Assembly (NCBI RefSeq): GCF_005862235.1
Contig: NZ_VCEK01000004.1
Location: forward strand, 186,001 to 250,000
Origin: Saccharomonospora piscinae
Lineage (GTDB): Bacteria > Actinomycetota > Actinomycetes > Mycobacteriales > Pseudonocardiaceae
DNA length: 64,000 bases
Direction: 5' to 3'
Numbering within the stretch: the first letter of the stretch is position 1; every line of letters begins with the position of its first letter. This document shows, in pieces, positions 38,999 through 64,000 of the stretch. The position numbers were made by a program, and so were the translations under genes. A model generated the notes under the pieces. The model did not search any database and was not told where the DNA came from. It saw only the letters and a list, made by a program, of their open reading frames with translations.

Positions 38999-39889
38999 AT
39001 GGTCACGCCAAGTCCGTCGCCGGGCCAGGAGTCCGGCGCCCGGCCGTCCGAGACCACCGCGCCCACCGCCGTGGTGGAGCGGACGAAACCCTCGACGGCA
39101 CAGCAACTCGCCGCCTTCCTCGAACAGTCGTGGCGACCCATCGCGTTGCTGGTGGCACTGTTCGTAGCGTGGTGGGTGGTCACGGCGGCCGAACTCGTCG
39201 AACCGTACCTCGTTCCCTCGCCCGGCGACACGATCGCGGCCATCACGGCCAATCCGGACTACTTCTGGCAGCACACGTGGACCACGACGTACGAGACGCT
39301 GCTCGGCTTCGTCATCGCCACGGTGATCGGCGTGTTCGCCGCGCTGGTGATGGTGCAGTCGGCCACCGTCGAGAAGACGCTGTATCCACTGCTGCTGTTC
39401 GCCCAGGTCATTCCCAAGATCGCCATCGCGCCGCTGTTCGTCGTGTGGCTCGGGTTCGGACTCGGCCCCAAGATCGTCGTGGCGGTGCTCATGGCGTTCT
39501 TCCCCGTCGTGATCTCGATGGTCACCGGACTCAAGTCCGTGGACCCGGAGATGCTGGAGCTGTCCTCGACGATGGGCGCCAAACCGGCCCAGACGTTCTG
39601 GAAGATCCGCTTCCCGGCCTCGCTGCCGCACCTGTTCTCCGGGCTGAAGGTGGCCGCCACGATGGCCGTGACCGGAGCGGTGGTCGGCGAGTTCGTCGGA
39701 GCCGACGCCGGGCTCGGGTTCGTGATCCTCCAGGCCAACGGGAACCTCGACACCCCGGTGCTGTTCGCCGGGCTGCTGATCATGTCGCTGATGGGCGTGC
39801 TGCTGTTCGTGCTCGTCGAATGGCTGGAGCGGCTCGTGCTTCCGTGGCACGCGAGCCGTCGCGGCGACAACGTCACCACGACTTTCTGA
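38999..39889 (+). CDS. ABC transporter permease, NitT/TauT type
   Basis: 296 aa, ATG with GGAGG upstream. A disordered Pro/Ser/Thr-rich N-terminus (about 1-35) precedes six membrane helices with the EAA-loop region LELSSTMGAKPAQTFWKIRFP. The family transports nitrate, taurine, sulfonates or thiamine precursors. Here it is flanked by sugar-catabolic genes, which is unusual. It is first in an operon with a solute-binding protein and an ATPase, under a LacI-controlled promoter. Confidence 0.9.
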   Translation: MVTPSPSPGQESGARPSETTAPTAVVERTKPSTAQQLAAFLEQSWRPIALLVALFVAWWVVTAAELVEPYLVPSPGDTIAAITANPDYFWQHTWTTTYETLLGFVIATVIGVFAALVMVQSATVEKTLYPLLLFAQVIPKIAIAPLFVVWLGFGLGPKIVVAVLMAFFPVVISMVTGLKSVDPEMLELSSTMGAKPAQTFWKIRFPASLPHLFSGLKVAATMAVTGAVVGEFVGADAGLGFVILQANGNLDTPVLFAGLLIMSLMGVLLFVLVEWLERLVLPWHASRRGDNVTTTF

Positions 39890-39935
39890 CAGGGCACCTC
39901 GACACCAGGCTTTCGACCCAGGCAAAGGAAGGGCC

Positions 39936-40952: not shown

Positions 40953-40960
40953 GTGGGTCC

Positions 40961-41746
40961 ATGTCCAGCTACGCGGTCGAGATCGCCGGAGTCTCGGTGC
41001 GGTTCCGCACGAAGAAGCGGGACGTCACGGCGTTGCACGACGTCACGATGCACGTCGAGCCCGGTGAGTTCATCGCCATCGTCGGTCCGTCGGGGTGCGG
41101 CAAGTCGACCCTGCTCAAGCTCGCGTCGGGCCTGCTCGCGCCGTCGGCGGGCCACGTGAGGTTGCAGGGCGAGGACGTCACGGGCGCGCGCAAGGACGTG
41201 GGCTACGTGTTCCAGAAGGCGGCGCTGCTGGAGTGGCGCACGGCGCGCAAGAACATCCTGCTGCAGGCCGAGATGCGCCACATGCCGGCTCGGCAGGCGC
41301 GGGAACGGACCGACGAGCTCATCGCGATGACCGGGCTCACCGGGTTCGAGGACGCCTACCCGCACGAGCTGTCGGGCGGCATGCAGCAGCGTGTCGCGCT
41401 GTGCCGGGCGCTGCTGCACCGGCCGCCGGTACTGCTCATGGACGAGCCGTTCGGTGCGCTCGACGCGCTGACGCGGGAGCAGATGAACGTCGAGCTGCGG
41501 CGGATCTGGCAGGAGACGGGCACGACCGTGCTGCTGGTGACGCACTCGATCTCGGAGGCGGTGTACCTCGCCGACCGCGTCGTGATGATCACCGCGCGGC
41601 CCGGAACCGTGGCCGGGACCGTCGACATCGAGCTTCCGGCGGAGCGCGACTACGGCCGGACGATGTCCGCGCCGGAGTTCACCGACGCCACCCGCCGCAT
41701 CCGTGAGCATCTCGGCGCGGCCCAGGCGGAGGTCGTGGGCGACTGA
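40961..41746 (+). CDS. ABC transporter ATP-binding protein, NitT/TauT type
   Basis: 261 aa from the ATG at 40961. An in-frame ATG at 40949 overlaps the previous stop but lies too close to its AAGGA. Walker A GPSGCGKSTLLKL (about residue 43), Q-loop VFQKAALLEW, signature LSGGMQQRVALCRALL (about 140) and Walker B VLLMDEPFGALDAL are intact. It energises the permease of the same operon. Length matches SsuB/TauB proteins. Confidence 0.93.
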   Translation: MSSYAVEIAGVSVRFRTKKRDVTALHDVTMHVEPGEFIAIVGPSGCGKSTLLKLASGLLAPSAGHVRLQGEDVTGARKDVGYVFQKAALLEWRTARKNILLQAEMRHMPARQARERTDELIAMTGLTGFEDAYPHELSGGMQQRVALCRALLHRPPVLLMDEPFGALDALTREQMNVELRRIWQETGTTVLLVTHSISEAVYLADRVVMITARPGTVAGTVDIELPAERDYGRTMSAPEFTDATRRIREHLGAAQAEVVGD

Positions 41747-41807
41747 CGCTCGCTCACCACCGGCACCACCGGCACCACACTGCCCTCACCACAGAGAAAG
41801 GCGACTC

Positions 41808-42968
41808 ATGGCGGGACTCAAACAGCGATCGGTCGGGATCGTGATGAACGGGGTGACCGGGCGCATGGGCTACCGGCAGCACCTCGTGCGCTCGATCCTC
41901 GCGATCCGCGAGCAGGGCGGGGTGAGGCTGCCCGACGGCACGGTCGTGTGGCCCGAGCCGATCCTGGTCGGTCGCAACGAGGCGAAGCTCGCCGCGATCG
42001 CCAAGGACCACGGCCTCGACAACTGGACCACCGACCTCGACGCGGCGCTGGCTGATCCGGCTGCCGAGATCTACTTCGACGCCCAGGTGACCAGCCGCAG
42101 GGTGGAGGGCGTGCGCAAGGCCGTCGCGGCGGGCAAGCACATCTACACGGAGAAGCCGGTGGCCGAGGACGTCGGCACGGCACTGGAACTCGCGCGGTTG
42201 GCCGCCTCGGCGGGGGTCAAGGTGGGTGTGGTGCAGGACAAGCTGTTCCTGCCGGGCCTGCTCAAGCTCAAGCGGCTGGTGGACGGCGGGTTCTTCGGCC
42301 GCGTCCTCTCGGTGCGGGGCGAGTTCGGCTACTGGGTGTTCGAGGGGGACTGGCAGGAGGCGCAGCGACCGTCCTGGAACTACCGCAGTGAGGACGGCGG
42401 CGGCATCATCATCGACATGTTCTGCCACTGGCGGTACGTGCTGGAGGACATCTTCGGCCCGGTTCGTTCGGTGCAGGCGCTGGCGGCCACGCACGTTCCC
42501 GAGCGCGTGGACGAGGGCGGGCGGCCCTACGCCTGCACCGCCGACGACGCGGCGTACGGCATCTTCGAGCTCGACGGCGGCATCGTCGCACAGGTCAACT
42601 CGTCGTGGGCGACCCGCGTGTTCCGCGACGAACTCGTGGAGTTCCAGGTGGACGGCACCGAGGGCAGCGCGGTGGCGGGGCTGCGGCGCTGTCGTGTGCA
42701 GCACCGGTCGGTGACACCCAAGCCGGTGTGGAACCCGGATCTGCCCGCGACGGAGGACTTCCGTGGCCAGTGGCAGGACGTTCCCGACAACGCGGAGTTC
42801 GACAACGGTTTCAAGGCCCAGTGGGAACTGTTCCTCCGGCACGTGGTCGCCGACGGTGAGTTCCCGTGGGACTTCCTGGCCGGCGCGCGCGGGGTGCAGC
42901 TCGCCGAACTCGGCCTTCGCTCGGCCCACGAGGGCCGCAGGATCGCGGTGGAGCCACTGAGTTTGTAG
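41808..42968 (+). CDS. Gfo/Idh/MocA oxidoreductase of locus A
   Basis: 386 aa from the ATG at 41808. The Rossmann domain begins VGIVMNGVTGRMGYRQHL, and the family EKP motif is in HIYTEKPVAED (about 112). A C-terminal alpha/beta substrate domain follows with DGGGIIIDMFCHWRYVLED near 200. These enzymes oxidise or reduce sugar hydroxyls with NAD(P). This subtype is commonly paired with DUF993 and TIM-barrel isomerase genes. It is 61 nt from the ATPase gene and likely in the same operon. Confidence 0.9.
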   Translation: MAGLKQRSVGIVMNGVTGRMGYRQHLVRSILAIREQGGVRLPDGTVVWPEPILVGRNEAKLAAIAKDHGLDNWTTDLDAALADPAAEIYFDAQVTSRRVEGVRKAVAAGKHIYTEKPVAEDVGTALELARLAASAGVKVGVVQDKLFLPGLLKLKRLVDGGFFGRVLSVRGEFGYWVFEGDWQEAQRPSWNYRSEDGGGIIIDMFCHWRYVLEDIFGPVRSVQALAATHVPERVDEGGRPYACTADDAAYGIFELDGGIVAQVNSSWATRVFRDELVEFQVDGTEGSAVAGLRRCRVQHRSVTPKPVWNPDLPATEDFRGQWQDVPDNAEFDNGFKAQWELFLRHVVADGEFPWDFLAGARGVQLAELGLRSAHEGRRIAVEPLSL

Positions 42969-43051
42969 AGCTGCCTGTAGGCGCTCTGCGCGGCTCGTCG
43001 CGGTGACAAGACCCGGCACGCACAACTGAACACGGTCCCGGCATTGCGAAA

Positions 43052-43063
43052 GAAAGCGCTTCC
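43052..43063. promoter_or_regulatory. LacI-type operator upstream of the ThuA multidomain gene
   Basis: GAAAGCGCTTCC matches the GAAAGCG..TTC sites of locus A in 11 of 12 positions of the ideal palindrome. It is 37 nt before the ATG at 43101. A single copy is present. I found no clear -10. Confidence 0.65.
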
Positions 43064-43100
43064 AGTAGAAGCGTGACACTCAACGGAGAGGAATTCGCTT

Positions 43101-46100
43101 ATGTCCGGTCGTCGACGTGCGCGCGCTCTGGGGGCGCTGCTCGCGACACTGATGGCGGTCAGTGTCGCGGCAGCGCTTCCCGCGGGGGCCCAGCCACGAT
43201 TCAGCGTCCTGGTCTTTTCCAAGGTCACCAATTTCCACCACGACTCGATCCCGGCCGGGATCGAGGCCATCGAGCGCATGGGTGCCGAACACGGCTTCGA
43301 CGTCGAGGCCACCGACGACGCCTCGGCGTTCACCGACGACAACCTGGCACGCTTCGACACGCTCGTCTTCAACAACACCAACTCGACCCCCGAGTCGGGC
43401 GACCTGCTCGACGCGGACCAGCGCGCCGCGCTCCAGCGCTACGTGCAGGGGGGCGGCGGCTGGGTCGGGCTGCACGCGGCCTCCGCCAGCGAGCGCGACT
43501 GGGAGTGGTACGAGGGCCTGGTCGGCGCGATCTTCGACTATCATCCCGCGCCGCAGGTGGGCCGGGTGAAGGTCCTCGACCAGGTGCATCCGTCCACACG
43601 CGACCTACCGCAGCTGTGGGAGCAGCACGAGGAGTGGTACAACTGGCGGGCCAACCCCACGGGCGACGTCCACACGCTCGCGCAGATCAAGGTGCGCGAC
43701 GGTGTCGAGGGCCTCGACGAGGGGGTGGACCACCCGTACTCGTGGTGCCACAACTACGACGGCGGGCGGTCGTGGTTCACCGCGGGCGGCCACGCGGCGG
43801 AGAAGTTCTCCGACGAGCTGTTCCTGTCGCACCTGAGGGGAGGCATCGAGTGGGCCGCCGGAGCCCAGGAGGGCGACTGCTCGGCCACGCAGACGGGCAA
43901 CTTCCAGCGCGTCGCGTTGGTGGACGAGGGACTGGCCGATCCGTTCGAGCTGGCTGTGGCACCGGACCGCCGGGTCTTCTACATCCAGCGCACGGGCGCG
44001 CTCAAGGTGATCGACCAGACCTCGCGTGAGGTCACCACGGCACTCGACTTCAACTACACCCCCGAGATGACCAGCCAGTCCGACGGTCTGCTCGGGCTGA
44101 CGCTCGACCCGGACTTCGCCGAGAACAGCCACCTGTACCTGTTGTACTCCGACCCCGAGGAGCCGAGGCTCAACCTCTCGCGGTTCACGGTCGCCGACGA
44201 CGACACGGTGGACCGGGCCACCGAGGCCCGCCTGATGGAGATCCCGACGTTCCGGGGCGAGGGCAGGGCGAACTCCCACATGGCCGGGTCGATCACCTTC
44301 GACGCGGAGGGCAACCTGCTGGTCGCGACCGGCGACAACACCGACCCGTTCGACTCGGACGGCTTCTCCCCGATCGACGAGCGGGAGGGGCGCCGGGCGT
44401 GGGATGCCCAGGGCACCGCCGCCGACACCAACGACCTGCGGGGCAAGATCCTGCGCATCACGCCGCGGGACGACGGCACGTACACCGTGCCGGAGGGCAA
44501 CCTCTTCGAGCCGGGCACGGAGCTGACCCGCCCGGAGATCTACGTGATGGGGCTGCGTAATCCCTTCCGTATCGCCGTCGATCCCGGCTCCAACGCCCTG
44601 TTCGTGGGCGACTACGGGCCGGACGCGCGGCAGCCCGTCCCCGATCGGGGACCCGAGGGCACGGTCGAGTTCCTGCGGATCACCGAGGCGGGTAACCACG
44701 GCTGGCCCTACTGCGTCGGCGACAACACTCCGTTCTCGGACTACGACTTCGCCACCGGCGAGTCCGGGGAGAAGTTCGACTGCGGGGCGCCGGTCAACGA
44801 CTCGCCCAACAACAGCGGGCTCACCGAGCTGCCGCCCGCGCAGCCTGCCTGGGTGTGGTACCCGTACTCGGCCTCGGCGGAGTTCCCCGAACTCGGCACC
44901 GGTGGTGGCGGCCCGATGGGCGGGCCGGTCTACGACTTCGACCCGGACAACGAGCGGGTGACCAAGTTCCCCGAGTACTTCGACGGGAAGTTCTTCGCCT
45001 ACGAGCTGACGCGCCGCTGGTTCAAGACGATGTCGGTGCAACAGGAAGACCAGAGCTTCACCGACCCGCGGTTCTCCCCGGCACAGGCCGGCGACCTGCA
45101 TTCCATCAACGGCGTGTTCGAGGACATGGACTGGATCCAGCCGTTCGAGGCGCACTTCGGGCCTGACGGCTCGCTCTACGTCATCGACTTCGGTGAGGGC
45201 AGCGGCACCGGCCGGGGCGGAAGCAACGACGGGGCCGGGATCTACCGGATCGACTACGTGGCCGACGGGCGACTCCCCACGGCCTCGCTCAGTACGTCGG
45301 CCGACTCGGGCAAGACACCGTTGACGGTGGACTTCTCCAGCGAGGGGTCGGCGGGCGGTGACGGCGAGCCGGTCACCTACGAGTGGGACTTCGACGGCGA
45401 CGGCACCACCGACTCCACCGAACCCGAGGCCACCCACACCTACACCGAGGGTGGCCAGTACACGGCGCGCCTCACGGTGACCAGCACGGCCAACCCGGAG
45501 CTGACGGCGGTCGCGACGACCACCATCACCGCCGGGAACACACGGCCCACCGTGGAGCTGGTGCTGCCGAAGGACGGCGGGATGTTCTCCTTCGGTGACA
45601 CGATCCCGTTCCAGGTGCGGGTCAACGACCGGGAGGACGGCAGCATCGACTGCTCGGAGGTGGTCGTGCAGTCGCAGCTCGGGCACGACGACCACCTGCA
45701 CCCGATGGACAACGTCACCGGGTGCCGCGGCGAGATGGCCACCGACAGCGGCGACAGCCACGGTCCCGGCCAGAACCTCTACGTCGCGCTCAGCGCGCAG
45801 TACACCGACCAGGGCAACGGCGACGTGCCGCCGCTGACCGGTTCCGCGCACGTCACGCTCGAACCGAAGCACAAGGAGGCCGAGCACCTGGAGGACAGCG
45901 ACGGTGTGGACGTGCTGAACCGCGACGACGCGTCGGCGGGCAAGCGGCTCGGGGAGATCGAGCACGGTGACTGGGTGGCCTACGAACCCGTTCACCTGAT
46001 GGGCATCGACTCGGTGACGATCGGGGCGAGTTCGGGTGGCATCGGGGGCACCGTCGAACTGCGTGCCGACGCCCCCGATGGCCCGCTGCTCGGCTCGGTC

Positions 46101-46277
46101 GACGTGGCAGCCACCGGAGACTACGGCGAGGTGGTGCCGAGGACGGCCGAACTGGCCGACCACGACGGCACGATGACCCTCTACCTGGTGTTCACGAACC
46201 CCGACTGGTCGCCGGACGGGCCTGACCTGCTGGCGCTCGACTGGCTGGAGTTCAACGGAAAGGGTGTGACGAGGTGA
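43101..46277 (+). CDS. Secreted ThuA - PQQ-type sugar dehydrogenase - PKD - CBM6 protein
   Basis: 1058 aa with a Sec signal (residues 1-30, cleavage near PAGA-Q). Domains in order: ThuA-like glutamine-amidotransferase fold (about 33-255; VLVFSKVTNFHHDSIPAG, WVGLHAA), a soluble glucose dehydrogenase-like beta-propeller (about 270-715; DGLLGLTLDPDF, THAT-type DTNDLRGKILRI, MGLRNPFRIAVD, NHGWPYC), a PKD domain (about 725-810; YEWDFDGDG), an Ig/cadherin-like domain (about 812-920) and a CBM6 sugar-binding domain (about 926-1055). It should oxidise or process sugars at the cell surface. A GTGA overlap couples it to the Tat-exported isomerase. Confidence 0.88.
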   Translation: MSGRRRARALGALLATLMAVSVAAALPAGAQPRFSVLVFSKVTNFHHDSIPAGIEAIERMGAEHGFDVEATDDASAFTDDNLARFDTLVFNNTNSTPESGDLLDADQRAALQRYVQGGGGWVGLHAASASERDWEWYEGLVGAIFDYHPAPQVGRVKVLDQVHPSTRDLPQLWEQHEEWYNWRANPTGDVHTLAQIKVRDGVEGLDEGVDHPYSWCHNYDGGRSWFTAGGHAAEKFSDELFLSHLRGGIEWAAGAQEGDCSATQTGNFQRVALVDEGLADPFELAVAPDRRVFYIQRTGALKVIDQTSREVTTALDFNYTPEMTSQSDGLLGLTLDPDFAENSHLYLLYSDPEEPRLNLSRFTVADDDTVDRATEARLMEIPTFRGEGRANSHMAGSITFDAEGNLLVATGDNTDPFDSDGFSPIDEREGRRAWDAQGTAADTNDLRGKILRITPRDDGTYTVPEGNLFEPGTELTRPEIYVMGLRNPFRIAVDPGSNALFVGDYGPDARQPVPDRGPEGTVEFLRITEAGNHGWPYCVGDNTPFSDYDFATGESGEKFDCGAPVNDSPNNSGLTELPPAQPAWVWYPYSASAEFPELGTGGGGPMGGPVYDFDPDNERVTKFPEYFDGKFFAYELTRRWFKTMSVQQEDQSFTDPRFSPAQAGDLHSINGVFEDMDWIQPFEAHFGPDGSLYVIDFGEGSGTGRGGSNDGAGIYRIDYVADGRLPTASLSTSADSGKTPLTVDFSSEGSAGGDGEPVTYEWDFDGDGTTDSTEPEATHTYTEGGQYTARLTVTSTANPELTAVATTTITAGNTRPTVELVLPKDGGMFSFGDTIPFQVRVNDREDGSIDCSEVVVQSQLGHDDHLHPMDNVTGCRGEMATDSGDSHGPGQNLYVALSAQYTDQGNGDVPPLTGSAHVTLEPKHKEAEHLEDSDGVDVLNRDDASAGKRLGEIEHGDWVAYEPVHLMGIDSVTIGASSGGIGGTVELRADAPDGPLLGSVDVAATGDYGEVVPRTAELADHDGTMTLYLVFTNPDWSPDGPDLLALDWLEFNGKGVTR

Positions 46278-47149
46278 GTAGCACGGCGAACTCCCGGCGC
46301 GACTTCCTGCGCCTCGCGCTCGGCTCGGCGGCGCTGGCCGGTGCCGGAGGCATGCTGTCCCAGGGCACCGCGCTCGCGGACCGGCCCGCCGTCGGCCCCC
46401 ACCGCGTGCCGCCGGGACACATCGGCATCCAGCTCTACACGGTGCGGTCGCTGATGACGCACGACCCGCAGGGCACGCTCGACGCGCTCGGCGAGATCGG
46501 CTACGCCACGGTGGGCGTCAGCGGCCGCTACGGGCACACCCCGCAGGAGTTCCGGGCGATGCTCGACCGCGCGGGACTGCGAGCGGTACTGACGCACCTG
46601 TCGCTGGACGCCGTGCGCGGTGACTGGCAGCGCGAGCTGGACAACGCGCACGTGCTCGGAGTGGACTCGGTGGTGGTGCCGTCGCTGCCGAGTTCGTTGT
46701 GGACACCGGAGGGTTACCGGCAGGTGGCCGCGGAGTTCGAGGCGGCGGGCCGGGCGGCGCGCGAGGCCGGGTTGCGGTTCCTCTACCACAACCACGACTT
46801 CGACTTCCGCACCGTCGACGGGCAGGTGCTCTACGACATCCTGCTCACCGAGACCGACCCCGCGCACGTGAACTTCGAGATCGATCTGTACTGGGCGATC
46901 CACGCGGGCTACGACCCGGTGGACTACTTCGCGCGGTACCCCGGCCGGTTCCCGGTGTTCCACGTGAAGGACCGGGCGCCGGACGGATCGTTCGAGGACG
47001 TCGGTTACGGCACGATCGACTTCCGCCGGATCTTCCGGCAGCGCAGGCTGTCGGGGGTGAAGGAGTACGTGGTGGAACACGACCAGCCGCAGGACCCGCT
47101 GGTCAGCGCCCGCCGCAGCTTCGACACGCTGTGGAGCCTGCGGTTCTAG
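46274..47149 (+). CDS. Tat-exported TIM-barrel sugar isomerase/epimerase-like protein
   Basis: 291 aa from a GTG overlapping the previous stop. The Tat signal SRRDFLRLALGSAAL lies at residues 8-22. The barrel starts IGIQLYTVRSLM; metal-site candidates are in FLYHNHDFDF (about 170), NFEIDLYWAIHAG (about 200), FPVFHVKDR (about 228) and EYVVEHDQPQDP (about 260). Export of a folded, metal-loaded enzyme suggests extracellular action on the product of its multidomain partner. Secreted relatives act in 3-keto-glycoside conversion. Confidence 0.87.
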   Translation: MSSTANSRRDFLRLALGSAALAGAGGMLSQGTALADRPAVGPHRVPPGHIGIQLYTVRSLMTHDPQGTLDALGEIGYATVGVSGRYGHTPQEFRAMLDRAGLRAVLTHLSLDAVRGDWQRELDNAHVLGVDSVVVPSLPSSLWTPEGYRQVAAEFEAAGRAAREAGLRFLYHNHDFDFRTVDGQVLYDILLTETDPAHVNFEIDLYWAIHAGYDPVDYFARYPGRFPVFHVKDRAPDGSFEDVGYGTIDFRRIFRQRRLSGVKEYVVEHDQPQDPLVSARRSFDTLWSLRF

Positions 47150-54559: not shown

Positions 54560-54588
54560 TTGACGCGTGACCGTCGTCGCCCTACTTT
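54560..54588 (+). promoter_or_regulatory. Promoter of locus B
   Basis: -35 TTGACG (54560-54565) and -10 TACTTT (54583-54588) with a 17-nt spacer; predicted start near 54595, giving a leader of about 23 nt. Confidence 0.7.
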
Positions 54589-54617
54589 TGCATGCCAGAG
54601 AAGAAAGTGGGGCTGAT

Positions 54618-56162
54618 GTGGATTTAAGTCTGCACGCGGCAAGCGACGAAGCGAGCGAGACGCCCCTGCTCACGATGCGTGGCATCGTGAAGCTCTTTCC
54701 CGGAGTCCGGGCGCTCGACGGTGTCGACCTGGACGTCAGGGCCGGTGAGGTGCACTGCCTGCTCGGTCAGAACGGCGCGGGGAAGTCGACGCTCATCAAG
54801 ACGCTTGCCGGCGCGCACCAGCCGGACGCGGGTGAGATCACCTGGCAGGGGGAGGTGATCAGCCTGTCGTCGCCGGTGGCCGCGTTGCGGCGCGGTATCG
54901 CGACGATGTACCAGGAACTGGACCTCATTCCCGGGCTGTCGGTCGCGGAGAACGTCTTCCTGGGCCACGAGCACGCGCGGTACGGCTTCACGCGGCCCTC
55001 GGCCGCGCGGGCCCAGACCGCCGCGCTGCTCGACCGGTTGGGACACGCCGAGATCTCGCCCGACGACGAGGTCGGCGCCCTGTCGGCCGCGGGCCAGCAG
55101 CTGGTCTCGATGGCGAGGGCGCTGGCGCACGACGCCAAGCTGATCATCGCCGACGAGCCCACGGCCGCGCTGGCCGCGGACGAGGTGGACAACCTCTTCC
55201 GCGTCGTCGGCGAGCTGACCGAACAGGGCGTCGCCGTCGTCTACATCTCGCACCGGCTGGACGAGATCCGCCGGATCGGTGACCGGGTCACCGTCATCAA
55301 GGACGGCCGCACGGTGGCCGCCAACCTCGGCGCGCGGGAGAACTCGACGTCGGAGCTGGTCGACCTCATGGCGGGTCGCGCGGTGCAGACCGCGTTCCGC
55401 GAGGCGGGGCAGGCGCAGGTGGAGCCGGGCGAGGTCCTGCTCGACGTGCGGGACCTCAGCAGGGCAGGCGAGTTCCGCGACGTCTCCTTCAGCGTCCGCG
55501 CCGGTGAGATCGTCGGACTGGCGGGGCTGGTCGGCGCGGGGCGCAGCGAGATCCTGGAAACGGTCTTCGGCGCGCGCACACCCGACAGCGGCACCGTCGC
55601 GGTGAACGGCAGGCCGGTGCGGCCCGGCAGCGTCGCCTCCGCGGTGAACGCCGGTGTCGGCCTCGCGCCGGAGGAGCGCAAGAGCCAGGCGTTGCTGCTG
55701 GACATGTCCGTGACGCACAACGTCACGCTCGCCAGCCTCGGCGAGTACAGCACCGCCGGGTTCTCGCAACGCGACCGCGAGCACCGCGACGCGCGATCCA
55801 CATTGGAGCGGCTCGACCTGCGGCCTGCCGACCCGCACCGGGAGGTGCGCACGCTGTCCGGCGGCAACCAGCAGAAGGCGGTCGTGGCGCGCTGGCTCGT
55901 GCACGGCTGCCGCGTGCTGCTGCTCGACGAACCCACGCGCGGGGTGGACGTGGGGGCCAGGGCCGGGCTGTACCGGCTGATCCACGAACTCGCCGCGTCG
56001 GGCGTGGCGGTGGTGCTGGTCTCCAGTGAGATCCCCGAGGTCCTGGGGCTGGCCGACCGGGTGCTCGTGGTGCGGGACGGCGAGGTGCTGACCGAGCGGC
56101 CCTCCGGCGAACTGACAGAAGCAGACATTCTCGACATGGTCATGGAAGGGAGCGCGGCGTGA
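54618..56162 (+). CDS. Sugar ABC transporter ATPase with two nucleotide-binding domains
   Basis: 514 aa from the GTG at 54618; a GTG at 54567 is in frame but lies upstream of the predicted transcript start. Two ATP-binding cassettes are in tandem. The first has Walker A GQNGAGKSTLIKTLAG (about residue 49), a changed signature LSAAGQQLVSMA and Walker B LIIADEPTAAL. The second has GLVGAGRSEILE (Walker A lacks Lys), LSGGNQQKAVVARWL and LLLDEPTRGVDVGA. This layout is RbsA/MglA-type. The mRNA continues to permease, binding protein and dehydrogenase with 4-bp overlaps. Confidence 0.95.
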   Translation: MDLSLHAASDEASETPLLTMRGIVKLFPGVRALDGVDLDVRAGEVHCLLGQNGAGKSTLIKTLAGAHQPDAGEITWQGEVISLSSPVAALRRGIATMYQELDLIPGLSVAENVFLGHEHARYGFTRPSAARAQTAALLDRLGHAEISPDDEVGALSAAGQQLVSMARALAHDAKLIIADEPTAALAADEVDNLFRVVGELTEQGVAVVYISHRLDEIRRIGDRVTVIKDGRTVAANLGARENSTSELVDLMAGRAVQTAFREAGQAQVEPGEVLLDVRDLSRAGEFRDVSFSVRAGEIVGLAGLVGAGRSEILETVFGARTPDSGTVAVNGRPVRPGSVASAVNAGVGLAPEERKSQALLLDMSVTHNVTLASLGEYSTAGFSQRDREHRDARSTLERLDLRPADPHREVRTLSGGNQQKAVVARWLVHGCRVLLLDEPTRGVDVGARAGLYRLIHELAASGVAVVLVSSEIPEVLGLADRVLVVRDGEVLTERPSGELTEADILDMVMEGSAA

Positions 56163-57223
56163 CCGAGACGCTCGACCGACCGCCGGTGGAGCCCCAGAGT
56201 GCGGGCACGCGGCGCAGGAAACCCGTCGACGTGCGGCTGCTGGGGCTGGCCGGGGTGCTGGTGCTGCTGCTGGCCATCGGGTTCGCCACGAACCCGGACA
56301 CGTTCCTCTCGCAGGACAACATCTCGATCATGCTGCGGCTCTCCGCGGCCATCGGTGTGGTCAGCGTGGGGATGACGTTCGTCATCATCGCCGGTGGTAT
56401 CGACCTGTCCGTGGGTTCGATCGCGGCCCTGGCCAGCGTGTGGATGACGACGGTCGCGACGCAGTCGTTCGGCCCGGTGGTCATGGTGCTGTGCGCGCTG
56501 GCGGTCGGGCTCGGCGCCGGCATGGTGAACGGCCTGCTGATCTCCTACGGCAAGGTCGTGCCGTTCATCATGACGCTCGCCATGATGGTCACGGCCCGGG
56601 GTCTGGCCGAGCGCATCAGCGGGCGGCAGACCCAGGTGGTGACCGAGCCGGGGTTCACCGAGTTCTTCAACTCCGACGTGCTCGGCATCCCGGTGCTGGT
56701 CTGGATCCTCGCGCTGGTGTTCGCGGCGGGCTGGGTGGTGCTCAACCGCACCACCTTCGGCAGGCGGACCTACGCCATCGGTGGCAACGCGGAGGCCGCC
56801 CGGCTCTCCGGCATCAACGTCAAGTGGCACACCGCGCTGGTGTACGGCATCAGCGGGCTCACCTGCGGGATCGGGGCCATCATGGTCGTGTCCCGCACGA
56901 CCTCCGGCGCCTCGACGAACGGGATGCTCTGGGAACTTGACGCCATCGCCGCCGTCGTCATCGGCGGCACCCTGCTCTCCGGTGGGCGCGGAAGCCTCAT
57001 CGGCACCCTCATCGGCGTGCTGATCTTCACGGTGCTCAACAGCATCTTCACCCAGAACAACCTCGACACCGACATCCAGAACATCGCCAAGGGCGTGATC
57101 ATCGTCTTGGCCGTGCTGCTCCAGCACACCGCTCGGACGCGCAAGGGCAAGTCACCGCCATCGGCGGACCCCAAGAAGCTCTCCCCCGACCCGGCAACCG
57201 AACCCACTGGGAGTAAGCCATGA
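56159..57223 (+). CDS. Sugar ABC transporter permease (RbsC type)
   Basis: 354 aa from a GTG overlapping the ATPase stop. Eight to ten membrane helices; family motifs GMTFVIIAGGIDLSVGSI (about residue 73) and YAIGGNAEAARLSGINV (about 203) are intact. It forms a homodimeric channel for the binding protein encoded next. It overlaps that gene by ATGA. The C-terminal 25 residues are a polar tail. Confidence 0.94.
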   Translation: MTETLDRPPVEPQSAGTRRRKPVDVRLLGLAGVLVLLLAIGFATNPDTFLSQDNISIMLRLSAAIGVVSVGMTFVIIAGGIDLSVGSIAALASVWMTTVATQSFGPVVMVLCALAVGLGAGMVNGLLISYGKVVPFIMTLAMMVTARGLAERISGRQTQVVTEPGFTEFFNSDVLGIPVLVWILALVFAAGWVVLNRTTFGRRTYAIGGNAEAARLSGINVKWHTALVYGISGLTCGIGAIMVVSRTTSGASTNGMLWELDAIAAVVIGGTLLSGGRGSLIGTLIGVLIFTVLNSIFTQNNLDTDIQNIAKGVIIVLAVLLQHTARTRKGKSPPSADPKKLSPDPATEPTGSKP

Positions 57224-58275
57224 GAAGAACCAACCTAGGGCGACGCGGTTTCCTGCTCTCCGCCGCGGGAGTCGGCGCCGGAGCCGTGCTCGTGGGCTGC
57301 ACGTCCAACGAGCAGCCCTCGGACGGCAACCAGCAACCCCAGGTGGGTGCGCAGGGTTCCAACGCCGAACCGGGTGATCCCGTCACCATCGGCTTCTCCG
57401 CGCCCGCGGCCGACCACGGCTGGATGGCCGCGATGACCATCAACGCGCGGGAGGCGGCCGGGCAGTACTCCGACGTCACGCTGGAGGCCACCGAGGGCAC
57501 CAACGACGTCAACCGGCAGGTCGCCCAGGTCGAGTCGCTGATCAGCCAGGGTGTCGACGCGCTCGTGATCCTGCCGTTCGACGGCAAGGCGCTCACCCGG
57601 GTGGGCAGGCAGGCGATGGACGCCGGAATCCCGGTCATCAACGTGGACCGGGTGTTCGACACGCCGCTGGCCTACCGCACCTGGATCGGCGGCGACAACT
57701 ACCGGATGGGCGTCAACGCGGGCAACTACATCGCCGAGCGGCTCAAGAGCGAGAACGTGAGCAACCCGGTGATCGGCGAGGTCGCCGGTCTGGACAGCCT
57801 GCCGCTGACCCAGGACCGCAGCCAGGGCTTCGCCGACGCGCTGGCGACCCACGGCTTCGAGGTCACGCACCGGGTCGCCGCGGAGTTCACCCCCGAGACC
57901 GGGCAGGAGCAGACCGCCAACCTGCTGCAGAGCGCGCAGGACCTGGACGCGCTGTGGAACCACGACGACGACCAGGGCATCGGCGTGGTCGCGGCCATCG
58001 ACGCGGCGGGCCGCGACGACTTCTTCATGGTCGGCGGCGCGGGCTCGCGCAACATGATGGACCTCATCAAGGCCGACTCCGGCCCGGTGAAGGCCACGGT
58101 GCTGTACAGCCCGTCGATGGCGGCCTCGGCGATCTCGCTGGCCAGGCTGCTCGGCCAGAGCAAGGGCATGTCCGACCTCGCCGAGCACGAGATCCCCGCC
58201 GAGGTCACGACCTACTCCGCGGTGGTCACCAAGGACAATGTGGACTCCTATCTCGACGTTGGGTTCGACTCGTGA
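57220..58275 (+). CDS. Sugar-binding lipoprotein of locus B (RbsB type)
   Basis: 351 aa. The N-terminus has a twin-arginine motif, GRRGFLLSAAG, and a lipobox VLVGC (Cys near residue 27), so it is probably a Tat-exported lipoprotein. The mature part is a type I periplasmic-binding fold: VTIGFSAPAADHGWMAAM, LISQGVDALVILPFDG and VINVDRVFD. Ligands in this group are monosaccharides or small polyols. It overlaps the next gene by GTGA. Confidence 0.93.
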   Translation: MRRTNLGRRGFLLSAAGVGAGAVLVGCTSNEQPSDGNQQPQVGAQGSNAEPGDPVTIGFSAPAADHGWMAAMTINAREAAGQYSDVTLEATEGTNDVNRQVAQVESLISQGVDALVILPFDGKALTRVGRQAMDAGIPVINVDRVFDTPLAYRTWIGGDNYRMGVNAGNYIAERLKSENVSNPVIGEVAGLDSLPLTQDRSQGFADALATHGFEVTHRVAAEFTPETGQEQTANLLQSAQDLDALWNHDDDQGIGVVAAIDAAGRDDFFMVGGAGSRNMMDLIKADSGPVKATVLYSPSMAASAISLARLLGQSKGMSDLAEHEIPAEVTTYSAVVTKDNVDSYLDVGFDS

Positions 58276-59432
58276 CACAACAGGCATCCGGTAACGGCGG
58301 CGGGCGGGAAGAGCTCGGGGTCGCCATGGTCGGGCACGCCTTCATGGGGGCGGTGCACTCGCAGGCGTGGCGCAGCGTCGCCCGGTTCTTCGACGTGCCG
58401 GTCACCCCCAGAATGGCCGTGCTGACGGGCCGCGACGCGGACCGCGCGGCGCAGGCGGCCGACCGCATGGGCTGGGAGTCGGCCTCGACCGACTGGCGTG
58501 CGGTCCTCGAGCGCGACGACATCGACCTCGTGGACATCTGCACACCGGGCGACACCCACGCCGAGATCGCCATCGCGGCGCTGGAGGCGGGCAAGCACGT
58601 GCTGTGCGAGAAGCCGCTGGCCAACACGGTCGACGAGGCGCAGCGCATGGTGGAGGCCGCAGAGCGGGCCCGCGAGCGCGGGGTGTACTCGATGGTCGCG
58701 TTCAACTACCGCAGGGTGCCCGCGCTGGCGTTCGCCCGGAAGCTGGTCGCCGAGGGGCGGCTGGGGGAGCTGCGGCACGTGCGTGCCGTCTACCTGCAGG
58801 ACTGGCTGGCCGACGCGGACTCGCCGATGACGTGGCGGCTGCGCAAGGAGCAGGCGGGTTCGGGCGCGCTCGGCGACATCGGCGCGCACATCATCGACGC
58901 CACCCAGTTCGTGACCGGACAGCGGATCAGCGGCGTGTCCGGGCTCACCGAGACCTTCGTGCGCCAGCGGCCCTCCGGCGAGGGCACCGAGGACGTGACG
59001 GTGGACGACTGCGCGATCTTCACGGCGCGCTTCGACTCCGGCGCGGTGGGCAGCTTCGAGGCCACCCGCTACGCGCTGGGCCGCAAGAACGCCATGCGCA
59101 TGGAGATCAACGGGTCGCGGGGCAGCCTGTCGTTCGACTTCGAGTCGATGAACGAACTGTGGTTCCACGACGGCGACGAGGACCCCGAGACCGGCGGGTT
59201 CCGGCGCATCGTCGTCACCGAGCCCACCCACCCGTACCTGGGGGCCTGGTGGCCGCCGGGTCACGTGCTCGGCTACGAGCACACCTTCACCCACGAGCTC
59301 GCGGACCTGCTCACCGCCCTCGCGGCGGGCACGGCACCGGAGCCGAGTTTCGCCGACGGGCTGCGGGTACAGCGGGTTCTGTCGGCGGTCGAGCACAGCG
59401 CGGAGAACGGTTCGAAGTACATCCAGGTGTAG
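58272..59432 (+). CDS. Gfo/Idh/MocA oxidoreductase of locus B
   Basis: 386 aa from a GTG overlapping the binding-protein stop. Rossmann domain LGVAMVGHAFMGAVHSQAW, the EKP motif in HVLCEKPLANT (about 114), and DIGAHIIDATQFVTG (about 205), where the Asp and His are usual catalytic or sugar-binding residues. There is no export signal. It is in a subfamily different from the locus A enzyme. With the importer it should oxidise the incoming sugar, in the manner of ThuB-type 3-dehydrogenases. This substrate call is inference. Confidence 0.9.
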   Translation: MTQQASGNGGGREELGVAMVGHAFMGAVHSQAWRSVARFFDVPVTPRMAVLTGRDADRAAQAADRMGWESASTDWRAVLERDDIDLVDICTPGDTHAEIAIAALEAGKHVLCEKPLANTVDEAQRMVEAAERARERGVYSMVAFNYRRVPALAFARKLVAEGRLGELRHVRAVYLQDWLADADSPMTWRLRKEQAGSGALGDIGAHIIDATQFVTGQRISGVSGLTETFVRQRPSGEGTEDVTVDDCAIFTARFDSGAVGSFEATRYALGRKNAMRMEINGSRGSLSFDFESMNELWFHDGDEDPETGGFRRIVVTEPTHPYLGAWWPPGHVLGYEHTFTHELADLLTALAAGTAPEPSFADGLRVQRVLSAVEHSAENGSKYIQV

Positions 59433-59481: not shown

Positions 59482-62400
59482 GTGCGACGAGGCAGTAGTA
59501 CCAGAACTCAGGGCGGAGCGTTGCGGCGCGGTTGGAAGGCCGGCGTCGTGACGCTCGCGCTCTGTACGGGATTGAGCGGCGGGTTGACGTTCACCGCCGG
59601 CGCGCAGGAGGCCGCCCACGCGGACGCCAGCGTGCTGGTGTTCTCGAAGACCGCCGGGTTCCGGCACGACTCGATCCCGGCCGGGATCGAGGCCATCGAG
59701 CAGCTCGGCGAGGAGCACCACTTCTCGGTGGACGCCACCGAGGACGCCGCCGAGTTCACCGACGACAACCTCGCCCAGTACGACGCGGTGGTCTGGCTGT
59801 CCACCACCGGCGACGTGCTGAACGACGAGCAGCAGTCGGCGTTCGAGCGCTACGTCGAGGGCGGCGGCGGTTACGCGGGCGTCCACGCCGCGTCCGACAC
59901 CGAGTACGACTGGCCGTGGTACGGCGATCTGGTGGGCGCCTACTTCGACTCGCACCCGCACATCCAGGAAGCGACGGTCAACGTCGAGGAGCGGCAGCAC
60001 CCGTCCACGGCGGAACTGCCGTACCAGTGGGTGCGCACCGACGAGTGGTACAACTACCGCGAGAACCCGCGCCAGGACGTCCACGTGCTGGCCGCGCTCG
60101 ACGAGAGCAGCTACGACGCGGGCTCGGGCGCGATGGGCGACGATCACCCGATCGCCTGGTGCCACGAGAACAGTGGCGGCCGTGCCTGGTACACGGGCGG
60201 CGGCCACACCATCGAGTCGTACGAGGAACCGGAGTTCCTCTCGCACCTCGCGGGCGGTATCCGCTATGCCGCGGGCCTGGCCGACGCCGACTGCGCCTCG
60301 ACCGGCGACCCCGATCCCGGCGATCCGGGCGACCCCGCCGACGAGGACTTCGACCAGATCACCCTGGCGCAGGGCGAGAGCGTCACCGGCGAGCCCATCG
60401 CGCTGTCGGTCCTGCCCGACGGCCGGGTGCTGCACACCTCCCGCGACGGCAGGGTCTTTCTGACCACGCCGGAGGGAAGCACCTCCGTGGCCGGGACGCT
60501 CGACGTCTACAACCACGACGAGGACGGCCTCCAGGGCATCGCCGTGGACCCGGACTTCGAGCAGAACCGCTGGGTGTACCTGTACTACGCGCCGCCGCTG
60601 GACACCCCGGCCGGTGACGCGCCCGAGACCGGTACGGCGGAGGACTTCGAGCCCTTCGAGGGCCACAACCAGCTGTCCCGCTTCACCCTCAGCGACGAGG
60701 GCACGCTCGATCTGGACAGCGAGCAGCAGATCCTCCAGGTACCCGCGGACCGCGGCACGTGCTGCCACGCGGGCGGCGAGATCGACTTCGACGGTGACGG
60801 CAACCTGCTGCTGTCCACCGGCGACGACACCAACCCCTTCGCCTCGGACGGCTACACGCCGATCGACGAGCGCGAGGAGCGCAACCCCGCGTGGGACGCG
60901 CAGCGCAGCTCCGCCAACACCAACGACCTGCGCGGCAAGATCGTGCGGATCTCGGTGCAGGAGGACGGCAGCTACACGATCCCGGAGGGCAACCTCTTCG
61001 CCGAGGGCACCGAGAAGACCCGCCCCGAGATCTACGCGATGGGTTTCCGCAACCCGTTCCGCTTCGCGGTCGACAAGGAGACCGGCTGGATCTACCTCGG
61101 TGACTACGGTCCGGACGCGGGGTCGGCGAACCCCGAGCGCGGACCGGCAGGCACCGTGGAGTTCAACCTGATCAAGGAGCCCGGCAACTACGGCTGGCCC
61201 TACTGCGTCGGTGACAACGAGCCGTTCATCGACTACGACTTCGTCACCGGGACCTCCGGCGAGGCGTTCGACTGCGCGGCACCGGTGAACGAGAGCCCGC
61301 ACAACACGGGTCTGACCGAGCTGCCTCCCGCGCAGCCCGCGTGGATTCCGTACGACGGCGGGTCGGTTCCCGAGTTCGGCACCGGCGGCGAATCGCCCAT
61401 GGGCGGCCCCGTCTACCGCTTCGACCCGGACAACGACTCGCCCACGAAGTTCCCCGAGTACTACGACGGCAAGAACTTCGCCTACGAGTGGGATCGCGGC
61501 TGGATCAACACGATCGACGTCGGCGAGGACGGCGAGCCCGGCGCGATCGAGCCGTTCTTCGAGTCGATGAATTTGACCCGCCCGATGAACATCGAGTTCG
61601 GGCCCGACGGGTCGCTGTACGTGCTGGACTACGGCAGCGGCTACTTCGGTGGCGCGGACGACTCGGCCGTCTACCGCATCGACTACACGAAGGGCAACCG
61701 CACGCCCGACGTGTCGCTGTCGGCGGACGTGACCTCCGGTCAGGCTCCGCTGGAGGTGCAGTTCGACCCGTCGGGAACCGAGGACGAGGACGGCGGTGAG
61801 CTGTCCTACGCCTGGGACTTCGACGGTGACGGCGAGACCGACTCGAACGAGGCCGGCCCGGTGAGCCACACCTACACCGAGAACGGCCAGTACACCGCGC
61901 GGTTGTCGGTCACCGACGAGACCGGCCTGACGGGCACCGCGAGCGTGACGGTCACGGTGGGCAACACCGCGCCCACGGTGACCCTCGAAACGCCCGGCGA
62001 CGGCGGCTTCTTCGGCTTCGGCGACACCGTGCCGTTCGAGGTCTCGGTCACCGACCCCGAGGACGGCGAGATCGACTGCTCGAACGTGACGGTCGAGTAC
62101 ATCCTCGGGCACGACAACCACGGGCACCCGCTGTCGCGGACGACCGGGTGTGAGGGCGTCATCGAGACCCCGGCCGACGAGGGCCACGGGCTCGACGCCG
62201 ACATCTTCGGTGTCATCAACGCGAGCTACACCGACACCGGCGCCGGTGACCTGCCCTCGCTGGAGGGCTCGGACGAGGTCGTGCTCCAGCCGAAGACGAA
62301 GCAGGCCGAGTTCTTCACCGAGATGGAGGGCGTCGAGGTCGTCGCGGCCGACGGCGCCAGCGGTGGCCAGCGGGTCGGCTACATCGACGACGGCGACTGG

Positions 62401-64000
62401 ATCAAGCTCGATCCGGCGAGCCTGTCGGGTGTCGACAGCGTGACCTACCGCGTGTCCTCCGGTGGATCGGGCGGCACGATCGAGGCGCGCGTCGGCGCGG
62501 TCGACGGTCCCGTGGTGCACACGGTGGACGTCGAGAACACCGGCGGCTTCGACACCTACGAGGAGGTCGGGCCCGTCGAGGTCACCGACCCGGGTGAGAG
62601 CGGCCCCCTCTACCTGGTGTTCCGGGGCGAGGGCAGCGGAGGATTGTTCGACGTGGACGTCCTCAACGTCAACGGTGCCGGCGTCGCCGAGCCCGGCACT
62701 CCTGCCGAGTGCGAGCCCGGCCAGCCCGAGGACGGCTACCGGATGCTGTTCGACGGCACCGAGGACAGCCTCGGCGGCTGGAACCAGGCCGGGCCAGGTT
62801 CGTTCGAGCTGGGTGACGACTGCACCATCAAGTCCGTGGGCGGCATGGGGCTGCTGTGGTTCGACGAGCAGTTCGGCCCGGCGTACAGCCTCAAGCTCGA
62901 CTGGATGATGCCCGGTGACGACAACTCCGGTGTCTTCGTGGGCTTCCCCGACCCGGGCGACGACCCGTGGGTCGCGGTCAACGAGGGCTACGAGATCCAG
63001 ATCGACCCGTCGGACGCGCCGGAGAAGACCACGGGCGCGATCTACGACTTCCAGTCGGCCGATCTGGAGGCCAGGGACGAGGCGCTGAACCCCGAGGGCG
63101 AGTGGAACAGCTACGAGCTCGTGGTGCGGGGTCAGACGATCCAGGTGTACCTCAACGGCACCCTGATCAACGACTTCGTCAGCACCGACCCCAACCGTGA
63201 TCTCACGCAGGGCTTCGTCGGCCTGCAGAACCACGGTGGCGAGGACGACGTGTTCTTCCGGAACGTGCAGATCCGCGACATCGACTCGGCGGCCCCGGCC
63301 ACCGAGGCGTCGTTCGCGGAGCCCGGCGCCAACGGCTGGCACGACGGCGAGGTCGGGATCAGCCTGGAGGCCACGGACGAGGGCTCCGGGGTCGATCGCG
63401 TCGAGTACCGCCTCGACGGCGGCGACTGGACGCCGTACGGCGAGCCGGTCGTCGTGAGTGGTGACGGTGAGCACACGCTGCTGTACCGGGCGGTCGACAA
63501 GGCGGGCAACGTCGAGGACGACAACGCCCTGACCCTGAAGATCGACGGCACGGACCCGGTGGTGCTGATCGACGGAGTGGCCGACGGCGTCGTCTACGGC
63601 GACTCGCGGGACCTCGACGTGACGTGGCAGGCGACCGACGCCACCTCCGGTATCGAGTCGGCCTCGGCCACGCTGGACGGCGAGGAACTGGATTCGGAGC
63701 ACACGGTGGCGCTGCACCGGCTCGACCTCGGTGCGCACTCGCTGGTCGTGGCGGCCACGGACGCCGCGGGCAACACGGCGGAGCACACGGTGGAGTTCAC
63801 GTCCACGACGTCGTTCGACGACGTGAACGCGCTGCTGTCGCGCTTCGCGGACGAGGGCCAGCTCGGTTTCGGCCAGCGGATCATGCTGTCGGTGAAGCTG
63901 GGCCTCGCGGAGGTCGCGGGCAAGTGGGGCGGCTCGACGCACGCGGAGCGAGCGCTGGAGCGCTTCGTGACCGCGGCCGAGCGGCTGCCCGAGGGAGTGG
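59482..64000 (+). CDS. Secreted ThuA - PQQ-type dehydrogenase - PKD - CBM6 - DUF1080 - Ig-like protein, 3' end outside window
   Basis: At least 1506 codons from a GTG (GAGGAG upstream); no stop before the window ends. After a signal peptide (about 14-45) come ThuA (about 49-270; VLVFSKTAGFRHDSIPAG), a Gly/Asp/Pro linker, a glucose dehydrogenase-like propeller (about 287-735), PKD (about 740-832), an Ig/cadherin-like domain (about 832-936), CBM6 (about 940-1070), DUF1080 (about 1077-1270; MLFDGTEDSLGGW, GEWNSYELVVRGQTI), Ig-like repeats (about 1273-1445) and a helical FIVAR-like stretch. The first four modules parallel the protein at 43101. DUF1080 is the 3-keto-glycoside hydrolase/lyase-type family. 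Confidence 0.88.
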   Translation, partial: MRRGSSTRTQGGALRRGWKAGVVTLALCTGLSGGLTFTAGAQEAAHADASVLVFSKTAGFRHDSIPAGIEAIEQLGEEHHFSVDATEDAAEFTDDNLAQYDAVVWLSTTGDVLNDEQQSAFERYVEGGGGYAGVHAASDTEYDWPWYGDLVGAYFDSHPHIQEATVNVEERQHPSTAELPYQWVRTDEWYNYRENPRQDVHVLAALDESSYDAGSGAMGDDHPIAWCHENSGGRAWYTGGGHTIESYEEPEFLSHLAGGIRYAAGLADADCASTGDPDPGDPGDPADEDFDQITLAQGESVTGEPIALSVLPDGRVLHTSRDGRVFLTTPEGSTSVAGTLDVYNHDEDGLQGIAVDPDFEQNRWVYLYYAPPLDTPAGDAPETGTAEDFEPFEGHNQLSRFTLSDEGTLDLDSEQQILQVPADRGTCCHAGGEIDFDGDGNLLLSTGDDTNPFASDGYTPIDEREERNPAWDAQRSSANTNDLRGKIVRISVQEDGSYTIPEGNLFAEGTEKTRPEIYAMGFRNPFRFAVDKETGWIYLGDYGPDAGSANPERGPAGTVEFNLIKEPGNYGWPYCVGDNEPFIDYDFVTGTSGEAFDCAAPVNESPHNTGLTELPPAQPAWIPYDGGSVPEFGTGGESPMGGPVYRFDPDNDSPTKFPEYYDGKNFAYEWDRGWINTIDVGEDGEPGAIEPFFESMNLTRPMNIEFGPDGSLYVLDYGSGYFGGADDSAVYRIDYTKGNRTPDVSLSADVTSGQAPLEVQFDPSGTEDEDGGELSYAWDFDGDGETDSNEAGPVSHTYTENGQYTARLSVTDETGLTGTASVTVTVGNTAPTVTLETPGDGGFFGFGDTVPFEVSVTDPEDGEIDCSNVTVEYILGHDNHGHPLSRTTGCEGVIETPADEGHGLDADIFGVINASYTDTGAGDLPSLEGSDEVVLQPKTKQAEFFTEMEGVEVVAADGASGGQRVGYIDDGDWIKLDPASLSGVDSVTYRVSSGGSGGTIEARVGAVDGPVVHTVDVENTGGFDTYEEVGPVEVTDPGESGPLYLVFRGEGSGGLFDVDVLNVNGAGVAEPGTPAECEPGQPEDGYRMLFDGTEDSLGGWNQAGPGSFELGDDCTIKSVGGMGLLWFDEQFGPAYSLKLDWMMPGDDNSGVFVGFPDPGDDPWVAVNEGYEIQIDPSDAPEKTTGAIYDFQSADLEARDEALNPEGEWNSYELVVRGQTIQVYLNGTLINDFVSTDPNRDLTQGFVGLQNHGGEDDVFFRNVQIRDIDSAAPATEASFAEPGANGWHDGEVGISLEATDEGSGVDRVEYRLDGGDWTPYGEPVVVSGDGEHTLLYRAVDKAGNVEDDNALTLKIDGTDPVVLIDGVADGVVYGDSRDLDVTWQATDATSGIESASATLDGEELDSEHTVALHRLDLGAHSLVVAATDAAGNTAEHTVEFTSTTSFDDVNALLSRFADEGQLGFGQRIMLSVKLGLAEVAGKWGGSTHAERALERFVTAAERLPEGV

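Follow-up and report, generated by a model that had tools for sequence, protein, structure and literature searches.

A predicted secreted ThuA-GSDH-DUF1080 chain of Saccharomonospora as a candidate core of an extracellular 3-keto-glycoside pathway

The protein considered here is encoded from position 59482 (GTG start, + strand) of a 64,000-nucleotide stretch of Saccharomonospora piscinae DNA, which we call the window, and each of its closest described counterparts resembles it in part. The solved DUF1080 eliminase/hydratases (PDB 8rr2, 9fbe, 8tda and 8v31; Bacteroides BT2157) share the fold (Z about 20-21) and the Pfam family of one of its modules; they are, however, one-domain proteins of about 243-264 modelled residues, whereas here a module of ~180 residues stands in a chain of 1532, together with a candidate oxidase and a carbohydrate-binding module (CBM). 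The AtOGE operon of Agrobacterium has in common with this locus the residues of a TIM-barrel eliminase, a GFO reductase and a logic of oxidation, elimination, hydration and reduction; in contrast to that operon, the TIM barrels here are preceded by twin-arginine translocation (Tat) signals, DUF1080 is the candidate for the hydratase, and that for the oxidase is a secreted propeller instead of GlycDH (PMC10628242). In the Caulobacter lactose pathway of LacABC and DUF1080, according to the accessible portion of PMC9007349, oxidation is likewise non-cytoplasmic and is followed by a DUF1080 step, but LacABC is a membrane-bound dehydrogenase, whereas candidate oxidase, ThuA, CBM and DUF1080 here lie on one secreted chain. 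Soluble pyrroloquinoline quinone (PQQ) aldose sugar dehydrogenases (3a9g, 2ism, 2g8s and 3das) and soluble glucose dehydrogenase (sGDH, 1c9u) have the fold, the catalytic His and the Arg-Asn pair of our propeller. Unlike them, it has a Cys-Cys pair before the His, altered carboxylate-binding residues, and fused ThuA and DUF1080 modules. ThuA of the rhizobial thu operon is linked with 3-keto derivatives of disaccharides; that operon includes a cytosolic GFO enzyme and no propeller.

From sequence and predicted structure, we lean towards the view that the 1532-residue protein is secreted, binds the substrate and serves as the core of an extracellular 3-keto-glycoside pathway, one that would follow the scheme of the known 3-keto-glycoside pathway but run outside the cell and be united in a single chain. 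The CBM6 module, with the immunoglobulin-like (Ig) and FIMAH parts, would hold the protein on a glycan or oligosaccharide, where the GSDH propeller would oxidise a glycoside hydroxyl, most likely that at C3, and pass the electrons to an outside acceptor. The activated bond would then be broken by beta-elimination, carried out by a Tat-signal, AtOGE-like TIM barrel, by the DUF1080 module, or by both; an Rbs-type ATP-binding cassette (ABC) system would import the sugar and a GFO/IDH enzyme would reduce it. ThuA would act on the same intermediates, in a mode that the proposal leaves unspecified. The cluster holds gene candidates for the eliminase, the hydratase and the reductase, and an oxidase candidate by fold and partial site. 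The parts of the gene are as follows.

59482..64000, + strand: whole gene, secreted ThuA-GSDH-PKD-CBM6-DUF1080-OmpL47-FIMAH protein (open reading frame listing and domain searches)
59482..59610, + strand: putative N-terminal signal peptide, ~residues 1-43, basic then hydrophobic (read from sequence)
59632..60270, + strand: ThuA module, residues 51-263 (Pfam PF06283, 288.5 bits, cut-off 33.4)
60331..61680, + strand: GSDH-type propeller, candidate sugar oxidase, residues 284-733 (Pfam PF07995 and fold match)
60760..60768, + strand: Cys427-Cys428-His429, vicinal Cys pair before the counterpart of sGDH His144 (alignment)
61048..61053, + strand: Arg523-Asn524, counterparts of sGDH Arg228-Asn229 (alignment to 1c9u)
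61699..61959, + strand: PKD module, residues 740-826 (PF18911, PKD_4, 62.7 bits)
61972..62295, + strand: stretch between PKD and CBM6, residues 831-938 (matched in relatives)
62302..62670, + strand: CBM6, residues 941-1063 (PF03422, 77.8 bits)
62737..63276, + strand: DUF1080 / 3-keto-disaccharide hydrolase module, residues 1086-1265 (PF06439, 3keto-disac_hyd)
63358..63792, + strand: two OmpL47-type / Ig-like repeats, ~residues 1293-1437 (NF047446; extent from NF047441)
63814..64000 and past the window end, + strand: FIMAH-like helical tail, residues 1445-1519 (PF22888)

The reading frame is intact, without a frameshift, and its stop lies 80 bases beyond the window (L005:5080, equal to G000:C6:250080), so that 26 residues and the stop follow base 64000. 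An orthologue is present in all 12 genomes of the genus, the 11 others being 80-83% identical. Because seven of the 12 copies, our own included, align over their full length, with open frames of 1529-1534 residues and a common C-terminal motif, the gene appears to end naturally at this stop. The other five align only to about residue 1273; in at least two of these the repeat region is shorter or altered, yet the tail motif still follows it. Hydropathy among the first 60 residues reaches a maximum of 1.44, and nowhere in the chain does a 19-residue window exceed 1.6. Since a motif search of the whole chain found no LPxTG, and there is no C-terminal hydrophobic segment, the protein is probably released or held by its own binding modules. 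An open frame of 1562 residues on the minus strand over the same bases was read as a high-GC shadow frame and rejected as a gene.

An earlier note on this DNA, made from its letters alone, had described a very large modular chain running past the window, and the gene is just that. The note had also proposed that a redox-type propeller, ThuA, a CBM and DUF1080 are combined in a secreted protein acting on sugars; domain searches found all four, and PKD as well, above their curated Pfam cut-offs, DUF1080 at 132.4 bits against a cut-off of 26.8. It placed the propeller before ThuA, whereas the actual order is signal peptide, ThuA (Pfam match 51-263), GSDH propeller (304-576), PKD, CBM6, DUF1080, two OmpL47-type repeats and a FIMAH-like tail. 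The wall anchor that it suggested looking for beyond base 64000 was not found in the chain, nor was the FIVAR-like tail: no FIVAR match appears at E up to 1, and FIMAH matches instead. A stop shortly after the window, which the note had counted against itself, does literally occur, but as what appears to be a conserved native terminus.

The protein belongs to a widespread family. A pattern scan of an 84,980-genome collection gave at least 593 matches, of which at least 585 were confirmed. The best 80 of these at least 593 matches, here called the named loci (L051-L130), are mainly actinobacterial, with two planctomycete bins, one Latescibacteria and one Gemmatimonadetes bin. DUF1080 occurs in 38 of the 80, a share inflated by the ranking, which was by likeness to a query containing DUF1080. 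In 16 of these it lies on one chain with ThuA and GSDH, and seven of the 16 are Streptomyces chains with the order GSDH-PKD-CBM6-ThuA-DUF1080; the other 22 have a two-gene form, GSDH-PKD-CBM6 beside ThuA-DUF1080 (21 in Streptomyces and one in Actinophytocola). Independently of likeness to the query, we took 79 genomes of the class and queried them with nothing but the DUF1080 family, which matched in 25, our own included. Rows outside our own genome with E up to 1e-20 (53 of 77) merged to 49 places with flanks of up to 8 kb, several of which share a genome. These places come from 15 genomes, out of 24 besides our own in which anything matched; the module models applied to these class places were built from the named loci. 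ThuA, GSDH and DUF1080 share a single open frame at 23 of the 49 places and lie in neighbouring frames at eight, and each of the 15 genomes has at least one full set. As a rough yardstick, four ThuA genes in our own genome of 4.9 Mb mean that about 1 in 75 random stretches of 16.5 kb holds one. Fission, fusion and reordering while the set stays together are classical evidence that its modules share one task.

A redox role for the propeller is likely, its cofactor being putative. The PF07995 match scores 134.2 bits against a cut-off of 25. In a model of ThuA and GSDH together (predicted local distance difference test score, pLDDT, 93.6) the propeller matches the PQQ sugar dehydrogenase 3a9g (Z 39.6, 2.5 Å, 329 aligned residues) and 3das, the PQQ-bound enzyme of Streptomyces coelicolor (Z 36.0). 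For sGDH we take His144 to be catalytic, acting with Arg228-Asn229, and Lys377, Arg406 and Arg408 to be the ligands of the PQQ carboxylates. His429, Arg523 and Asn524, which align with His144, Arg228 and Asn229, are present in 46 of 46 rows of an alignment made of 44 hand-chosen ThuA-GSDH stretches, out of 59 from the named loci, and two from the window. A Cys-Cys pair precedes the catalytic-type His in 38 of the 46 rows, though not in the window's own paralogue, and there is none in five aligned PDB sequences or in three other GSDH proteins of our genome. Among GSDH frames, 83 of 95 from the named loci and 28 of 46 from the class sample have the Cys-Cys-His triplet, 11 frames of the latter sample falling outside the search pattern altogether; for the triplet Arg-(Asn/Gln)-Pro the counts are 93 of 95 and 36 of 46. 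Methanol dehydrogenase has a disulfide over its PQQ.

The same pathway could also run with a propeller that is a binding or structural element, so that a flavin glycoside 3-oxidase, a LacABC-type dehydrogenase or a GFO enzyme would oxidise the glycoside and the secreted protein would only bind, eliminate and hydrate. Several observations on the propeller weigh against the pathway as we propose it; three of them, namely the apparently partial PQQ site, the missing PqqC and a match to a presumed non-enzyme, speak for this alternative. The PQQ site appears partial: in the 46 rows there is no Arg at the Arg408 position and no Lys at that of Lys377, with an alignment uncertain by 1-2 residues, while the Arg406 position is Arg in 26, again with an uncertainty of one or two residues. 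The NCBIfam PQQ subfamily TIGR03606 scores 57.7, far under its cut-off of 434.55. The human Hedgehog-interacting protein (HHIP), which we take to be a non-enzyme relative, matches the propeller at Z up to 31.6, and thus the fold alone is no proof of an enzyme. PqqC was not found in our own genome; it is present in three of the 12 genus genomes, the only positives in a search that also covered 14 control genomes without a match. PQQ can be taken up, however, so that PqqC supports a PQQ enzyme without defining one. Set against a non-oxidase propeller are the His, Arg and Asn kept in every row and the common Cys-Cys pair before the His, and we regard it as somewhat unlikely. The genomes with PqqC are G002, G003 and G007 (loci L133, L132 and L131), a distribution that does not match the 12 of 12 of the propeller.

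The ThuA module matches 4jqs at Z 24.9 in the predicted structure, and H62, H135, E188, H222 and H242 are kept in all 46 rows. ThuA was considered as the oxidase and rejected, the fold being that of other ThuA-like proteins; we know of no account of the ThuA mechanism. The earlier expectation of oxidation and bond cleavage in one molecule thus finds no support as regards ThuA, and the oxidising module would be the propeller. The bond-cutting role that it gave to DUF1080 is likewise less certain, in that a Tat-signal TIM barrel is just as good a candidate for the cut and DUF1080 may rather hydrate the product of cleavage.

This last suggestion comes from analogy: the DUF1080 module may hydrate and not cut because, among solved structures whose activity is stated, those closest to it are 3-keto-glycoside eliminase/hydratases. 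The model (pLDDT 93.7) matches 9fbe, a 3-keto-glycoside eliminase/hydratase with 2-hydroxy-3-keto-glucal, at Z 21.2 (2.7 Å, 178 aligned), and 8v31, a 3-keto-2-hydroxy-glucal hydratase, at Z 20.2 (2.6 Å, 177 aligned); structures without a stated activity match at tied Z. N1148, E1171, Q1173, Y1188, W1208 and N1209 are present in all 37 aligned sequences. The accessible portion of PMC9007349 links DUF1080 to the hydrolysis of 3-ketotrehalose and 3'-ketolactose. It also names an endo-xanthanase/lichenase with this domain (endo-xanthanase THTE_1561), and CBM66 and lectin folds match the module at Z 14.6-17.2, as would suit a polysaccharide degrader in which DUF1080 is a true glycoside hydrolase or a lectin-like module and no 3-keto chemistry takes place. 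Those folds are outscored by the eliminase/hydratases (Z 19.7-21.2), however, and the neighbouring genes are candidates of the 3-keto type, which makes such a degrader improbable in our judgement.

The stretch at 831-938, conserved in the family, is probably Ig-like; in the paralogue there is a weak Big_7 match (15.2 bits, below cut-off). NF047446 (NCBIfam) hits two stretches, best at 1293-1354 with 101.9 bits, and NF047441 covers residues 1292-1437 with 75.8 bits, under its cut-off of 250. For the tail, FIVAR was rejected; FIMAH (PF22888) scores 17.5 bits here, below its cut-off of 24.8, and 31.6-45.7 bits in the tails of all six relatives scanned (five orthologues and one paralogue). So many Ig, PKD and OmpL47 modules would also be in keeping with a surface adhesin or matrix protein whose enzyme modules have decayed, but the invariant polar residues of ThuA, GSDH and DUF1080 across 37-46 sequences, and the importer and GFO genes upstream, render this very improbable.

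The proposed import and reduction steps have their candidates upstream of the gene.

54567..56162, + strand: importer double ABC ATPase (Walker A and signature motifs read in the open reading frame; homologues in the same place in relatives)
56159..57223, + strand: importer permease (BPD_transp_2, Pfam)
57220..58275, + strand: sugar-binding protein of the Rbs-type importer (Peripla_BP_4, Pfam)
58236..59432, + strand: GFO/IDH/MocA oxidoreductase, candidate cytosolic 3-keto-sugar reductase (Pfam)

The GFO/IDH gene lies immediately upstream of the orthologue in all 12 genus genomes. Of the 80 named loci, 65 extend 4.5 kb or more to the upstream side, and in 23 of these homologues of all four genes precede the chain in the same orientation. 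The 23 loci belong to Amycolatopsis, Saccharothrix, Prauserella, Phytoactinopolyspora, Haloactinopolyspora, Isoptericola, Nocardioides and Streptomyces.

Candidates for the elimination step are two Tat-signal TIM barrels. One overlaps the stop of a paralogue without DUF1080, in a second sugar cluster of the window (37818-47149) that consists of a LacI regulator, an NMT1-type ABC importer, a GFO/IDH gene, the ThuA-GSDH-PKD-CBM6 paralogue and the overlapping barrel.

41703..42968, + strand: GFO/IDH/MocA oxidoreductase preceding the paralogue (Pfam)
43101..46277, + strand: paralogue without DUF1080, ThuA-GSDH-PKD-CBM6, 1058 residues, no Cys-Cys pair (domain search and alignment)
46274..47149, + strand: Tat-signal TIM barrel overlapping the paralogue stop, AtOGE-like 3-keto-glycoside eliminase candidate (Pfam and comparison to 8bvk)

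Orthologues of the 46274 barrel (78-86% identical) adjoin the paralogue orthologue in our own genome, G002 and G007, which are all the genomes in which the paralogue was found (3 of 12). A single in-frame TGA was reported for the paralogue orthologues of G002 and G007, but we do not regard these copies as broken: both frames are complete to the conserved end, so that the TGA is probably the genuine stop, with the alignment carried on past it into the TIM gene that overlaps there. The second barrel, 40-45% identical to the first (own copy L005:13077-13934), lies 0.5 to 8.1 kb downstream of the orthologue of the 1532-residue protein, on the same contig and strand, in 10 of 12 genus genomes. The best solved relatives of the barrels are 8tcd, 8tcs, 8tct and 8bvk, the 46274 barrel matching 8bvk with E 8.4e-25. 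According to the available part of PMC10628242, 8bvk is AtOGE, an eliminase that cuts 3-keto-O-glucosides, with the metal ligands His132, Asp163, His189 and Glu233 and the catalytic His134. Both barrels have all five residues, as judged from an alignment of the L005 barrel to 8bvk and of the 46274 barrel to the L005 barrel; Glu39, which in AtOGE binds metal only at a shifted site, is conserved in the L005 barrel and is Gly in the 46274 barrel.

A possible electron acceptor comes from a sister clade. A paralogue on contig C3 (L008:5473-9486) has a ThuA split by a discoidin-type domain, followed by GSDH, PKD and DUF1080, and right after it comes a cupredoxin protein with Ig-like repeats (L008:9371-11116). 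Of the 15 genomes, 13 have such a cupredoxin, at 13 of the 49 class places in all. It adjoins a ThuA-GSDH-PKD-DUF1080 gene at nine places, including two weak matches (L170 and L171, with E of about 1e-15 to 5e-16 and lying partly in a stretch rich in His and Met), and is fused to the DUF1080 chain, beside a ThuA-GSDH gene, at four. The copper-site pattern His ... Cys-x-(I/F)-P-G-His occurs in 11 of the 14 cupredoxin stretches, our own included, the other three being cut off. A cupredoxin beside or fused to the set argues against a propeller without a redox role. We put forward, as a tentative extension that we think possible but doubtful, a widespread actinobacterial machine in which the whole 3-keto-glycoside chemistry is extracellular: the Cys-Cys-His propeller would be a glycoside 3-dehydrogenase passing electrons to a blue-copper protein, while ThuA, DUF1080 and the Tat-signal TIM barrels, fused or adjacent, would eliminate and hydrate on a glycan-bound scaffold.

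Several counts of gene neighbourhood stand on the other side from the proposed pathway. At six of the 49 class places GSDH occurs without ThuA, and 12 have neither (11, and one that the model did not refind). A full importer and GFO set is lacking in 42 of the 65 named loci with enough flank, and among the class places homologues of the binding protein, permease and GFO gene are found at five, eight and nine of the 49, respectively. A TIM barrel lies in only four of the 80 named loci and three of the 49 class places, although a barrel as far downstream as 8 kb, as in the genus, would escape flanks of 7-8 kb. The cupredoxin was not found in the 80 named loci, those nearest the query, a count that leaves aside the downstream side of L053 and L054, which end inside or just after a C3-type gene. 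The C3 regiochemistry, finally, is taken solely from the relatives of DUF1080 and of the TIM barrels.

If the proposal is true, non-hydrolytic, oxidation-based glycoside breakage would be a common secreted trait of actinomycetes, in proteins for which we came across no function on record, and ThuA would gain a testable setting. It would also put a name to a candidate for a glycoside 3-oxidase that is secreted, whose Cys-Cys-His site is unusual and which has a copper partner in the sister clade. Among the papers listed by our searches we found none that describes this module set, or that has ThuA together with sorbosone dehydrogenase or DUF1080, an absence that says little about subscription papers.

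Just past the window, L005:5247-12062 (G000:C6:250247-257062) holds a run of genes for myo-inositol-phosphate-synthase-like, UbiA, TIM-barrel, TatD-like, TIM-barrel and phosphodiesterase proteins, a run that resembles the ebo cluster, with an inositol-phosphate synthase within it. On contig C8, L007:9596-12583 encodes a further DUF1080 protein, PA14-DUF7133-CBM35-DUF1080, of 995 residues. A glycoside hydrolase family 2 protein is encoded next to it, and genes that, as read from sequence, resemble those for galactokinase and galactose-1-phosphate uridylyltransferase lie nearby.

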